A stretch of DNA of 64,000 nucleotides from Paenirhodobacter hankyongi (GTDB taxonomy: Bacteria > Pseudomonadota > Alphaproteobacteria > Rhodobacterales > Rhodobacteraceae), in contig NZ_RCHI01000001.1 of NCBI RefSeq assembly GCF_003664585.1, forward strand, positions 248,001 to 312,000. The letters run 5' to 3'. Below are positions 18,227 to 23,086 of this stretch, piece by piece; within the stretch, counting starts at the first letter, position 1; the number at the start of each line of letters is the position of its first letter. The notes below the pieces were generated by a model, which worked only from the letters and a program-made list of their open reading frames with translations, made no database searches and was not told the origin of the DNA. A program made the position numbers and the translations under genes.

Positions 18227-19675
18227 ATGATCGAGTTGCGCCCGGTGGGCTACATCATCGGCCTGCTGGCCACGGCCCTCGGGGCGGCGATGCTGATCCC
18301 GGCCGCGCTCGATTTCCTGCGCGGCGACGTCAATGCCGGCGCCTTCCTCGAGGCGGCGATCGTCACCATGACCGCGGGCGGTCTGGTGGCGCTGGCGGCC
18401 CATGACGGGCGCGGCACGATGCTGAGCCTGCGGCAGAGCTTCGTTGTCACCACCGGCGCCTGGGCGGTGCTGCCCGCCTTCGGCGCGCTGCCCTTCATCA
18501 CCGGGGCGCCGGGGCTCGACTTCACCGACGCCTATTTCGAGGCGATGTCGGGGCTGACCACCACCGGCACGACGGCGATTCCCGAGCTCGACGAGCTGCC
18601 CGCCGGCACCAACCTGTGGCGCGCGATCCTGCAATGGCTGGGCGGGCTCGGCATCATCATCGTGGCGATGATCTTCCTGCCGGTGATGAAGGTCGGCGGC
18701 ATGCAGTTCTTCCGCTCGGAAGGCTTCGACACCTTGGGCAAGATCCTGCCGCGGGCGATGGACATCTCGGCGGCGCTGATCCGGATCTATGTCGGGCTGA
18801 CGGTGGCCTGCGCGGTGACCTATGGCGTGCTGGGGATGACGGCCTTCGACGCGGTGGTGCATGCGCTGACCACGCTCTCGACCGGGGGCTTCTCGAATTA
18901 CGACGCGAGCTTCGGCGTCTATCGCGGCGCGCCGGAATATGCGGCCTCGCTGTTCATGCTGCTGGCCGCGATGCCCTTCATCCGCTTCGTGCAGCTGGCT
19001 CAGGGCAACCCGGCGCCGCTGTGGCGCGACCCGCAGGTGCGCGCCTTCCTGCGCTGGCACGGCTATGCGATCGCGGTGATCGTGCTCTATCGGCTGATCC
19101 GGCACGAAAGCGCGTTCTGGCCGACGCTGCGCGAGGTGACCTTCAACGTCGTGTCGACCTTCACCGGCACCGGCTATGCGTCCGAGGACATCACCTCCTG
19201 GGGGCATCTGGCCTTCGTGGTGCTGATCATCACCGGGCTGATCGGCGGCTGCACCTCCTCGACCGGCTGCTCGGTCAAGGTGTTCCGCTATCTGATCCTG
19301 TTCCAGGCGATCAAGGTGGCGATCCGGCGGCTCTACAGCCCGCACCGGGTGATGGGGATGCGCTATGACGGCCGCGCGGTCGAGCGCGAGGTGCTCGATT
19401 CCGTCGTCGCCTTCTTCACCCTCTTCGTGCTGACCTTCGGCGGGCTGATCGTGGCGCTGTCGCTGACCGGGCTCGCGCCGCGCACGGCGCTGACCGCGGC
19501 CTGGACGGCGATCGCCAATGTCGGGCCGGCCTGGGGGCCCGAGGTGTCGGCAAATGGCGCCGTCGACCGCTTCCCCGACAGCGCGAAATGGCTGATGGCG
19601 CTCGGGATGATGCTTGGCCGGCTCGAGCTGATGTCGGCCTTCGTGCTGCTCTTGCCGAAGTTCTGGCGCGGCTGA
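18227..19675 (+). CDS. trkH: Potassium uptake protein, TrkH family
   Basis: A 482-residue inner-membrane channel subunit with four pore loops carrying the selectivity-filter glycines: LTTTGTTAIPEL, LSTGGFSNYDAS, FTGTGYASED and NVGPAWGPEV. It moves potassium into the cell together with a cytoplasmic TrkA regulator, which is not in this window. The start at 18227 (MIELRPVGYIIG) has GGGGG closely upstream; the frame is open earlier, but that reading is not hydrophobic. It is divergent from pyc and converges on the pseudo-protease gene 29 bases beyond its stop. Confidence 0.93.
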   Translation: MIELRPVGYIIGLLATALGAAMLIPAALDFLRGDVNAGAFLEAAIVTMTAGGLVALAAHDGRGTMLSLRQSFVVTTGAWAVLPAFGALPFITGAPGLDFTDAYFEAMSGLTTTGTTAIPELDELPAGTNLWRAILQWLGGLGIIIVAMIFLPVMKVGGMQFFRSEGFDTLGKILPRAMDISAALIRIYVGLTVACAVTYGVLGMTAFDAVVHALTTLSTGGFSNYDASFGVYRGAPEYAASLFMLLAAMPFIRFVQLAQGNPAPLWRDPQVRAFLRWHGYAIAVIVLYRLIRHESAFWPTLREVTFNVVSTFTGTGYASEDITSWGHLAFVVLIITGLIGGCTSSTGCSVKVFRYLILFQAIKVAIRRLYSPHRVMGMRYDGRAVEREVLDSVVAFFTLFVLTFGGLIVALSLTGLAPRTALTAAWTAIANVGPAWGPEVSANGAVDRFPDSAKWLMALGMMLGRLELMSAFVLLLPKFWRG

Positions 19676-19704
19676 GCGCCGCGCCCGCGGTCAGGGGCGG
19701 GCGG

Positions 19705-21513
19705 TCATTTCCAGCAGGCGATCTGCACGGTGAATTTCTGCGCCTCGACGGCCAGATCCTCTGCCGCAAGCGTGCCCGTTGCCTCCGACGCGGTGGGCAT
19801 GAAGCCATGCTCGGCCAGCACCTGAACCAGCGGCATCGCCTGCACCGCCTCGGTCAGGCCGGCGGGCATCAACTTGGTGCCATCGGCCGCGCGTGGCAGC
19901 ACCACGCCGACCAGTGCGCCCGAGCCATCCAGCACCGGCCCGCCCGCATCGCCCGCCAGCGTGTGCACCGCCAGCCGCGCCCGGTTCGCCTCGCCGGCAA
20001 GGCCGGTCAGATCGGAGAGCGTGCCAAAGCTCAGCACCGGCGCGGTCAGCGTCTCGGGATAGGAAAAGCCCGCCACCGCCACCTGCGCACCGGCGGCGGT
20101 CGCCGCGGTCTCGAAGGCGACGATGCCGGCAGGCGCCATCGCCTTCTTCGGCGTCAGGACGGCGATGCCAAGCGCCGGATCGGAGAAGGCGAGATCCGCC
20201 TCCTCGTCCTCGATGGTGATCTTGGTGCAGGTGTCGAGCCCGGCGCCCGCCGTCAGAACCGCGCCCTTCTCGTCGATGAAGGCGCCCGAGCGGGCAAACT
20301 CCGGGTGCCGCCGCTCGAGCCCCGCCATCAGATCGCCGCGCGTCACCGTCATCGGCGTGCCGAGCGAGGGGTCGAGCGCGGTGCTGCCGATCGGCCGGAA
20401 CGAGGCCTTCATCGCCGCCAGCACGCGCTGCATCTTCGTCTCCTGCCCGGGCGGCCAGGCTAGGGTGAAGCCCTTGATCAGCCCGCCCGCCAGATGCGCC
20501 TCGGTCCAGGAGTGCAGGCTGTCGTTCTGTCCGGCGATGGTGAAGCCGCTGCGGTTTCGGCTGCGCTCGCCCTCGGCGGGCACCAGCGCCAGCGTCTGCA
20601 TCCGGTCGTAAAGCCCGTAAAGCGCGTTCTGGTCGCCGGTGAGCGACAGCAGCAGCGCGGTGACGCCCGAGCCGTCCTTGGCGCGATAGATGACGAAGGG
20701 CGGGTCGTAGCGGTCGAATTCGACCAGGCCGAGCGGCAGGTCGATGGCAATGCCGGCGTCGGTCTCCTCGACGGTCTCGAGGCCGAGCGCGGCGCGGTCG
20801 GCCGCGACGGCGGCGAGAAGCTGCGTCTGCTGCGTCGAGGCGAGCACGCCGGTCGGTGCAAAGCCCTGCGCCGTCTGCCAGGCGGCGATCGCCGTGCGGG
20901 TGCCGCGGCCGAAGGCGCCGTCGATCGTGGCGTTGTAGACTCCCTGCCATTCGAGCGCGGCCTGGATCTCCATCCGTGCCTCGCGGTCAAGTGCCGCCTC
21001 GAGCCGCTGTGACTCGGCCAGCGTCTCGACCGGCATCTCGGGCGCGGGCGCCGGGGCGGCGACGGCAGGCGGGGCCTCGGCCGCGGGCGCGACGGGCGGC
21101 GGTTCGATCGCGGCGGTTTCCGGGGGCGCGGTTTCGGGGGCGGGCGGCTCGGCCGCCGGGGGCAGGGGGGCGCCCGCGCCGGGCCAGAACTGGTCACGGA
21201 AGCGGCCGCCGTCCGAGACATAGCTGTCGCGCGGGATCAGCCCTTCACGGCGCAGCGTGCGCAGCCGCGCCGTTGCCTCCTCGGTGTCGGCGAAGGGGCC
21301 GATGGCGATCGCATACCAGCCTGTCGACATCGCAAAACCGGCGATGTCGGGGAATATGCCGGCCCAGTCCTGCGCGCGCTCCTCGGCCTGCGGGAGCGAG
21401 GGCTGCGCCTCGATCTGCACCCAGACCGGGTCGGCCGCGCCGGGGCCCGTCCAGATCATCCCCGCCAGACCCGCCGCCGTCGCGAGGCGCATCGCCTTGC
21501 GCATTCCCGTCAT
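19705..21513 (-). CDS. Secreted SPOR/peptidoglycan-binding protein with inactive trypsin-like domain
   Basis: A 602-residue exported protein. Order: signal peptide (1-27), SPOR-like domain (about 28-105, WVQIEAQPS and GWYAIAIGPFADTEEATA), Pro/Ala linker (112-165), peptidoglycan-binding-1 domain (about 175-232, GVYNATIDGAFGRGTRTAI), an intermediate region, and a trypsin-like domain (about 375-585). In the last, the usual TNAHVV reads TAGAGLD, the DLAVL reads LGIAVL and GNSGGP reads GDAGGP, so His, Asp and Ser are all replaced. It likely binds cell wall and a partner but cannot cleave peptides. It is convergent with trkH and divergent from glyQ. Confidence 0.8.
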   Translation of the reverse strand: MTGMRKAMRLATAAGLAGMIWTGPGAADPVWVQIEAQPSLPQAEERAQDWAGIFPDIAGFAMSTGWYAIAIGPFADTEEATARLRTLRREGLIPRDSYVSDGGRFRDQFWPGAGAPLPPAAEPPAPETAPPETAAIEPPPVAPAAEAPPAVAAPAPAPEMPVETLAESQRLEAALDREARMEIQAALEWQGVYNATIDGAFGRGTRTAIAAWQTAQGFAPTGVLASTQQTQLLAAVAADRAALGLETVEETDAGIAIDLPLGLVEFDRYDPPFVIYRAKDGSGVTALLLSLTGDQNALYGLYDRMQTLALVPAEGERSRNRSGFTIAGQNDSLHSWTEAHLAGGLIKGFTLAWPPGQETKMQRVLAAMKASFRPIGSTALDPSLGTPMTVTRGDLMAGLERRHPEFARSGAFIDEKGAVLTAGAGLDTCTKITIEDEEADLAFSDPALGIAVLTPKKAMAPAGIVAFETAATAAGAQVAVAGFSYPETLTAPVLSFGTLSDLTGLAGEANRARLAVHTLAGDAGGPVLDGSGALVGVVLPRAADGTKLMPAGLTEAVQAMPLVQVLAEHGFMPTASEATGTLAAEDLAVEAQKFTVQIACWK

Positions 21514-21618
21514 CGTGAAACCCGCTTCCTGTTCTCAAAACAGGGTGAGGTTAGCAGGCTGGCGGCGCACGTCACCCCGGAAATCGCGTGAAATCGGGCC
21601 CGGGCGCGGGGCGGGGCG

Positions 21619-21647
21619 TTGACCCTTGCCCGGCGCTTGCCTAGAGA
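21619..21647 (+). promoter_or_regulatory. Sigma-70 promoter of the glyQ operon
   Basis: TTGACC (21619-21624) and TAGAGA (21642-21647) are separated by 17 bases and lie 28 bases before the glyQ ATG, the best housekeeping promoter match I noticed in the window. The divergent pseudo-protease gene starts at 21513. Confidence 0.65.
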
Positions 21648-21674
21648 GAAGGCGCTTTGAACCAGAGGGAAGCC

Positions 21675-22613
21675 ATGTCGAACCCTGTCGCTCCGCGGTC
21701 GTTCCAGGAAATCATCCTGCGGCTCATGAATTACTGGGCCTCGAAAGGCTGCGCGGTGCTGCAGCCCTATGACATGGAGGTGGGCGCGGGCACCTTCCAC
21801 CCGGCGACCACGCTGCGCTCGCTCGGCTCGAACCCCTGGGCCGCGGCCTATGTCCAGCCCTCGCGTCGCCCGACCGATGGCCGCTATGGCGAGAACCCGA
21901 ACCGTCTGCAGCACTATTACCAGTATCAGGTGCTGATCAAGCCAAGCCCCTCGAACCTGCAGGAGCTCTATCTCGGTTCGCTCGCCGCGATCGGCATCGA
22001 CCTTGACCTGCACGACATCCGCTTTGTCGAGGACGACTGGGAAAGCCCGACGCTCGGCGCCTGGGGGCTGGGCTGGGAAGTCTGGTGCGACGGCATGGAA
22101 GTCAGCCAGTTCACCTATTTCCAGCAGGTCGGCGGGCATGACTGCAAGCCGGTCTCGGGCGAGCTGACCTATGGGCTCGAGCGCCTTGCGATGTATGTGC
22201 TCGGCATCGACCACGTCATGCAGATGCCGTTCAACGCCCCCGACGCGCCGATCCCGCTGACCTATGGCGACGTGTTCCGGCAGACCGAGGAAGAATATTC
22301 GCGCCACAACTTCGACGGTGCCAACACCGAGATGCTCTTGCGCCATTTCGAGGATGCCGAGGCGGAATGCGAGCGGCTGCTGTCCTTCCCGGCCGAGGAC
22401 CCGAACTCGGGCAAGCGCATCCTCATGGTGCACCCGGCCTATGACCAGTGCATCAAGGCCTCGCATCTGTTCAACCTGCTCGACGCGCGGGGCGTGATCT
22501 CGGTGACCGAGCGGCAGGCCTATATCGGCCGGGTCCGGGCGCTTGCGAAGAAATGCGCCGATGCCTTCGTGCAGACCACGGCCGGCGGCTGGACGCCCGA
22601 GGCCGCGCAGTGA
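21675..22613 (+). CDS. glyQ: Glycyl-tRNA synthetase alpha subunit
   Basis: A 312-residue catalytic subunit of the bacterial alpha2beta2 GlyRS. It opens [19 protein letters not shown], and contains the class II active-site text [15 protein letters not shown] and [19 protein letters not shown]. It forms glycyl-adenylate and charges tRNA-Gly in the cytoplasm. The start at 21675 (MSNPVAP) has GAGGGAAG upstream. Its stop overlaps the GTG of the next gene, so glyQ, the small protein and glyS form one operon. Confidence 0.97.
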
Positions 22614-23086
22614 ATGGAAAGCTGGTCGGAGGCAGTCTCGTGCTGGGCGCGCTGATCACCGGGGCCGCGGTCTATTACCTGCAGGTCTACGGCTATTATC
22701 ACGCGGTCGATGCGGCGGCGCCGGCCGCCGAGGTGCGGCTGACCGCGATCGAGACCGGCACGCCCGAACCGATCCTCGCCGAGGATTTCCAGGGCATCGA
22801 CGCCGACAGCTCGCCGCTGCGCTATCGCGGCTGCTTCCGCACGCCGATGAGCCTTGCGCTGCTGACCGAGACCTTCACCGTCTATGACAAGGCCACGCCG
22901 CTCACTGCGCCGGGCTGGTTCTCCTGTTTCGACGCTGCCCGGATCGGTGCCGACATCGAGACCGGCCGGGCGGTGGCCTTCCTGTCCGAACACGACATCC
23001 ACCCCGGCGTCGACCGCGTGGTGGCGATTTATCCCGATGGCCGGGCCTATGCCTGGCAGCAACTGAATGACGAAGCGGAGAAGTGA
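22610..23086 (+). CDS. Small membrane-anchored protein between glyQ and glyS (DUF6446-like)
   Basis: A 158-residue protein with one N-terminal membrane helix ([20 protein letters not shown]) and a predicted periplasmic domain with the pair of cysteines YRGCFRTP and WFSCFDAA. The GTG at 22610 overlaps the glyQ stop (GTGA), so it is translated by coupling. I recall this gene between glyQ and glyS as a conserved arrangement in Rhodobacteraceae, without a known role. The position between two tRNA-synthetase subunits is striking, but it has no RNA-binding features. Confidence 0.75.

Follow-up and report, generated by a model that had tools for sequence, protein, structure and literature searches.

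Members of a protein family of Rhodobacteraceae carry a trypsin-like domain that has lost its catalytic triad, and this loss is a trait of the whole family and not a local decay. The member described here is encoded in the window, that is, the whole stretch of 64,000 nucleotides of Paenirhodobacter hankyongi that was analysed. The Pfam match of its last domain would probably lead to the protein being labelled a peptidase, yet none of the members examined has the classical serine-peptidase set of residues. The observation goes beyond chance because the loss spans 182 distinct members and the gene divergently adjoins glyQ in 61 of 66 distinct loci. We consider it probable that the protein is a secreted, peptidoglycan-targeted pseudoprotease, whose non-catalytic domain docks a partner in order to position or regulate it.

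Domain architecture

The open reading frame at 19705-21513, on the minus strand, runs from ATG to stop and encodes 602 amino acids, exactly where the original prediction had placed it. The fusion of SPOR, peptidoglycan-binding and trypsin-type parts which that prediction proposed is also borne out, all three Pfam domains scoring above their curated cut-offs (Table 1). By eye, residues 1-27 resemble a Sec signal peptide, and a comparable hydrophobic start precedes xWVQIEA in many orthologues. An Ala/Pro/Glu-rich linker occupies residues 113-165, and the conserved region extends past the Trypsin_2 match to the C-terminus (CWK). When 30 members were scanned (E up to 0.1), PG_binding_1 and Trypsin_2 were matched in all 30 and SPOR in 28. 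The middle domain (residues 245-378) has no credible Pfam match in the window protein; in 14 members searched against Pfam it gave just two matches, both at E 0.23, in one member each and not credible, and against the PDB the best E of 0.31 is not credible either. A distant form of this domain of about 135 amino acids (18-19% identity) was seen in two proteins from other alphaproteobacterial families, L093 and L095. Scanning 19640-21720 for promoters and terminators gave no hit.

Table 1. Coordinates in the window of the pseudoprotease gene, its parts, its key residues and its neighbour.
Feature	Position	Strand	Basis
Whole gene, 602 aa, predicted secreted SPOR/PG_binding_1/Trypsin_2-like pseudoprotease	19705..21513	-	ORF and Pfam
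Predicted signal peptide, residues 1-27	21433..21513	-	by eye from sequence
SPOR domain, residues 28-91	21241..21432	-	PF05036, 26.6 bits (cut-off 21)
PG_binding_1 domain, residues 177-224	20842..20985	-	PF01471, 40 bits (cut-off 23)
Conserved middle domain, residues 245-378	20380..20781	-	family conservation
Trypsin_2-like domain, residues 409-537	19903..20289	-	PF13365, 40.3 bits (cut-off 27.6)
Catalytic His column, Ala424	20242..20244	-	alignment with intact relatives
Cys429, first of the conserved Cys pair	20227..20229	-	182/182 members; 29/30 intact relatives
Catalytic Asp column, Gly449	20167..20169	-	alignment with intact relatives
Catalytic Ser column, Ala523 in GDAGGP	19945..19947	-	alignment with intact relatives
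Cys600 in C-terminal CWK, second of the Cys pair	19714..19716	-	181/182 members; 27/30 intact relatives
Divergent neighbour, taken to be glyQ (glycyl-tRNA synthetase alpha)	21657..22613	+	start listed as TTG; ATG at 21675

A 30-row profile, run against solved chains, retrieves for the last domain MarP, HhoA, HTRA1/2, DegQ and DegP-like proteases (best E 2.9e-8), the nearest trypsin-like chains being MarP of M. tuberculosis (3k6y/3lt3) and HtrA-type proteases; for the PG-binding domain it retrieves SleB (E 1.3e-9). MarP and the HtrA-type proteases are catalytic families that are not known to have SPOR or PG_binding domains. AlphaFold models built from three sequences only (the window protein, L031 and L032) reach a mean pLDDT of 37.4 for residues 245-602 and 31.7 for residues 395-602; both means being below 40, the predicted trypsin-like fold, a double beta-barrel, rests on the sequence profiles.

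Loss of the catalytic triad

The family set comprises 182 distinct members with a profile score of at least 150, drawn from the matches listed and from re-searches of chosen genomes for weak ones, and not all of the 186 matching genomes are represented in it; 16 duplicate loci were removed, and L031 and L032 were excluded as copies of L002 and L004. The catalytic columns were fixed by an alignment that included 30 intact (H-D-S) relatives. The motifs had been read correctly in the window protein (TAGAGLD from residue 421, LGIAVL from 448, GDAGGP from 521), and the claimed loss of the triad stands, the three catalytic columns falling on Ala424, Gly449 and Ala523.

His occupies the first column in none of the 182 members, against 30 of 30 intact relatives, and is replaced by Glu (93), Asp (32), Ala (28), Gln (10) or other residues (18), with one gap. 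At the Asp column, where all 30 intact relatives have Asp, Gly is found in 165 members and Asp in four (other residues in seven, gaps in six). The Ser column is occupied by Ala (129), Val (27), Thr (9), Ser (6) and others (11). No triad residue is retained in 172 members, although in seven of them one of the three columns is gapped and so uninformative; ten members retain one residue and none retains two. Whether orthologues share the substitutions of the window protein thus has a mixed answer: the change from Asp to Gly is shared (165/182) and that from Ser to Ala or Val largely so (156/182), but the His column is variable and Ala is one of several residues found there.

Conservation and selection

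Around the dead serine the loop is still GDxGGP: Gly521, presumably position 193 by trypsin numbering, is kept in 171 of the 182 members, Asp522 in 173, Gly524 in 182, Gly525 in 174 and Pro526 in 176. Three residues are specific to the family, namely Gly449 (165/182, vs. Asp in 30/30 intact relatives), Asp522 (173/182, vs. Asn in 27/30) and Arg513 (174/182, vs. Gln in 28/30). Thr421 is kept in 181 members. The Cys429/Cys600 pair is a trait of the wider subfamily and would probably form a disulphide, which its presence in intact relatives makes more likely than a catalytic use.

Selection was estimated as dN/dS by the Nei-Gojobori method with Jukes-Cantor correction on four close pairs (window/L002, L003/L004, L006/L007 and L009/L011). 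In this order, the trypsin region gives 0.092, 0.061, 0.078 and 0.092, the whole protein 0.227, 0.160, 0.095 and 0.119, above the trypsin region in each pair, and the linker 0.436, 0.436, 0.128 and 0.159. A value lower than that of the trypsin region is seen for PG_binding_1 in two pairs and for the middle domain in one; for the more distant pair window/L003 the dN/dS of the trypsin region is 0.32. The suggestion that the domain is conserved rather than decayed is therefore upheld, since it is retained family-wide and is under purifying selection (0.06-0.09 in the four close pairs), which argues against simple decay.

Distribution in Rhodobacteraceae and the glyQ locus

The survey covered 219 Rhodobacteraceae genomes of 218 genera, with a completeness of at least 90% and a match threshold of 1e-45. 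A match was found in 186 genomes (85%) and 33 were without one, which makes the protein common across the family but not universal. Outside the family, in 289 genomes of the class, no full-length match is present among the matches listed; these are confined to the trypsin part, to the PG-binding part or to the PG-binding part together with the middle domain. A 93% identical orthologue occurs in genome G016; viral contigs yielded no relative, and a single plasmid record matches, from Pseudorhodobacter turbinis (44%).

The divergent neighbour in the window was recognised from its sequence, and we take it to be glyQ. Orthologues of merely 22-31% identity (L108, L109 and L111-L113) still adjoin glyQ. 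As for the five loci in which the divergent arrangement was not seen, three end on the glyQ side (L100, L104 and L107) and two have no glyQ within 1.5 kb (L019 and L023). Of the 33 no-match genomes, 20 were re-examined; glyQ was located in 17, and in 15 of these no trace of the gene was found in about 1.5 kb beyond glyQ. In G410 the gene is present at glyQ and is cut by the contig end, and in G326 the glyQ locus (L126/L270) holds a divergent copy with SPOR, PG-binding and middle domains and without the trypsin domain. The loss of the domain in G326 and the 15 genomes without a trace of the gene indicate that the protein is not indispensable everywhere. The G326 copy has two SPOR-like stretches, and G326 also has, on a different contig, an intact H-D-S relative, L114. 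Between glyQ and glyS, positions 22610-23086 of the window (plus strand) encode a small uncharacterised protein with a hydrophobic N-terminus; L292, inferred to be from Rhodobacter sphaeroides, has a reading frame in the corresponding position that looks similar by eye.

Intact relatives and origin of the dead form

Intact alphaproteobacterial Trypsin_2 proteases (L039-L063, L114 and L245-L248) share with the family the same domain, a similar C-terminus and, mostly, the same Cys pair; they differ in their intact H-D-S triad, and L114 does not adjoin glyQ. A search with L114 in 120 genomes of the family (E up to 1e-25, candidates sorted by eye) gave matches in 13, and about seven of these, judged by reading the sequences, have an intact H-D-S protein of similar layout (G326, G352, G370, G335, G031, G021 and G421). 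The remaining matches are to shorter proteins, to proteins of a different build or to the pseudoprotease (G338 and G347). Pfam recognises PG_binding_1 in L246 and L095 and not in L114 or L245; the PG-binding-like regions of L114 and L245, as well as the SPOR-like region of L245, are visible by eye only. The window genome gave no match in this search, and its other Trypsin_2 proteins are a DegP-like one of 516 amino acids and a small trypsin-like one.

A quick maximum-likelihood tree was built from 60 of the 182 members (the window protein, all 14 scoring under 620 bits and 45 randomly chosen ones) together with 39 relatives, after the three catalytic columns had been taken out and five incomplete rows dropped. 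One branch (SH-aLRT 99) separates the 60 members from the 39 relatives, 38 of which are H-D-S, so that one change is needed, in a tree that is unrooted, with groups set by profile score and six long end branches. The exception among the relatives is L093, a long-branched protein with its own degenerate triad. In L093 and L094 (from G319 and G225, of the other alphaproteobacterial family f70), a PG-binding-like part is joined to a version of the middle domain and to a trypsin-like part that is degenerate, with S-G-S in the catalytic columns of L093; here the triad may have been lost a second time, independently, within the same domain arrangement.

The probable orthologue in Rhodobacter sphaeroides

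In G351 the orthologue, at 450,486-452,267, is a protein of 593 amino acids with E-G-A in the catalytic columns. FolE2 lies two trkH-like genes before it, and folE2 is reported as RSP_1852 (PMC7074977); counting genes onward, the orthologue should be RSP_1855 and glyQ RSP_1856. An ORF of G351 at 435,323 fits RSP_1844, placed at 435,330 (PMC9275681). In the searchable literature, supplements apart, RSP_1852 is the only one of RSP_1852 to RSP_1857 that is named, and RSP_185x genes go unmentioned in the main text of PMC9275681.

RSP_1880 is a putative peptidoglycan-binding protein; CenKR is listed as lowering its expression (PMC9275681), and it co-precipitated with DalA (PMC10470522). A CenR site of 15 bases is published for it at 478,200 (PMC9275681), and this site was found in G351 (C4) at 478,118, one of five hits in 394 genomes; RSP_1880 was rejected as the orthologue because this position differs from that of the orthologue. 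Among the matches listed for the window genome, no PG_binding_1 gene adjoins potA. RSP_0465, described as a "putative protease", is conditionally essential when cells grow photosynthetically (PMC5513736); no link to the present protein could be made and none is claimed. Nor was the protein linked to Dshi_0924, a SPOR protein of Dinoroseobacter vesicles listed as an outer-membrane lipoprotein (PMC7901474).

Known pseudoenzymes and possible role

Pseudoproteases (MamO and CspC) and degenerate LytM regulators are already known; in the open-access literature searched we found no description of a SPOR/PG_binding pseudoprotease family and no published function for it. MamO is not known to have SPOR or PG_binding domains. 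DipM has LysM domains and is not known to have SPOR or PG_binding_1. The closest precedent is MamO, the magnetosome protein of Alphaproteobacteria, likewise a dead, clade-conserved protein of the Trypsin_2 superfamily with a degenerate triad, which is reported to activate MamE-dependent proteolysis (PMC4794232). It differs in having a surface di-histidine that binds metal and, at position 193, a residue other than glycine (PMC4794232), whereas the Rhodobacteraceae family mostly has Gly there and no conserved His. DipM and other degenerate LytM factors are likewise dead hydrolase domains of the alphaproteobacterial envelope, with a groove that docks wall enzymes (PMC10336132); their fold is another one, and the stimulation of autolysins described for DipM (PMC10336132) is, for the Rhodobacteraceae protein, an extrapolation. 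CspC of Clostridioides difficile is likewise a dead protease domain, acting in signalling, but it is subtilisin-like and serves spore germination (PMC6636752).

The main rival explanation sees in the trypsin-like domain an inert structural remnant, its fold kept for the stability of the SPOR and PG_binding parts and binding nothing. It would agree with the variation of the His column, with the partly free Ser column and with the G326 copy, which keeps the SPOR, PG_binding and middle parts without the trypsin domain. We nevertheless regard it as rather unlikely, because the near-fixed Gly449, Asp522 and Arg513 would hardly be needed for folding alone, the dN/dS of the domain is within the range of PG_binding_1 and below that of SPOR, and the domain has been retained in the 182 members. 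Far less credence is given to an active peptidase with an alternative catalytic set (a displaced His, Ser-Lys, Thr, Asp/Glu or Cys). Ser is kept in six members and Asp in four, and the His column carries Glu or Asp in 125 of 182; in the alignment of window residues 327-602, however, no column has His in more than 32% of members, and the columns conserved at 90% or more in the trypsin region, from residue 395, include no Ser, His or Lys. The sole potential nucleophiles conserved to that extent are the two Cys, Thr421 and Thr433, and Thr421 is common to all 30 intact relatives, as the Cys pair is to 29 and 27 of them.

Two further explanations are modelled on MamO. A metal-binding pseudoprotease, for which acidic ligands are conceivable, would share with MamO the superfamily, the bacterial class and the kind of loss (PMC4794232), but we hold it to be very improbable, given that metal binding in MamO relies on the di-histidine and that its position 193 is not a glycine (PMC4794232), features which contrast with the lack of a conserved His and with the retention of Gly521 in this family. 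The protein might instead serve an active paralogue as its dedicated partner, in the way that MamO serves MamE; this is suggested by four genomes (G352, G370, G335 and G031) in which the dead form (L129, L162, L211 and L106) coexists with an intact H-D-S relative of similar layout (L245-L248). It is still an improbable account, since an intact relative is found in about seven of the 120 family genomes and was not found in the window genome; such a paralogue therefore cannot be the partner in most hosts, for which DegP would be possible.

Docking of a partner at the wall is thus the reading that we prefer, and wall binding, septal place, partner and regulatory role are all inferred within it. 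Anchoring is favoured because both N-terminal domains point to the wall: as families, SPOR and PG_binding_1 would be expected to hold the protein there, and SPOR would prefer bare glycan strands, as at the septum. Docking is favoured because the cleft loop, the Cys pair and the family-specific residues persist without a catalyst; the trypsin-like domain, deprived of serine-protease chemistry while keeping the loop that shapes the cleft, would most likely dock a peptide or protein partner and then position or regulate it. As partner, either a hydrolase or a synthase of peptidoglycan would be a candidate, as would an active protease of the periplasm, for instance DegP. We advance only tentatively, as a possibility, the narrower proposal that the protein was fixed at the glyQ locus in an ancestor of Rhodobacteraceae and, steered by SPOR and PG_binding_1 to bare glycans of the septum, acts as the subunit that docks and activates DegP or an enzyme of peptidoglycan remodelling, a part taken elsewhere by degenerate LytM factors (EnvC, NlpD and DipM).

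New divisome proteins, such as DalA, are still emerging in the same bacterial group (PMC10470522). In Rhodobacter sphaeroides, the family would lend itself to asking whether dead proteases regulate the remodelling of the wall as dead LytM enzymes do.
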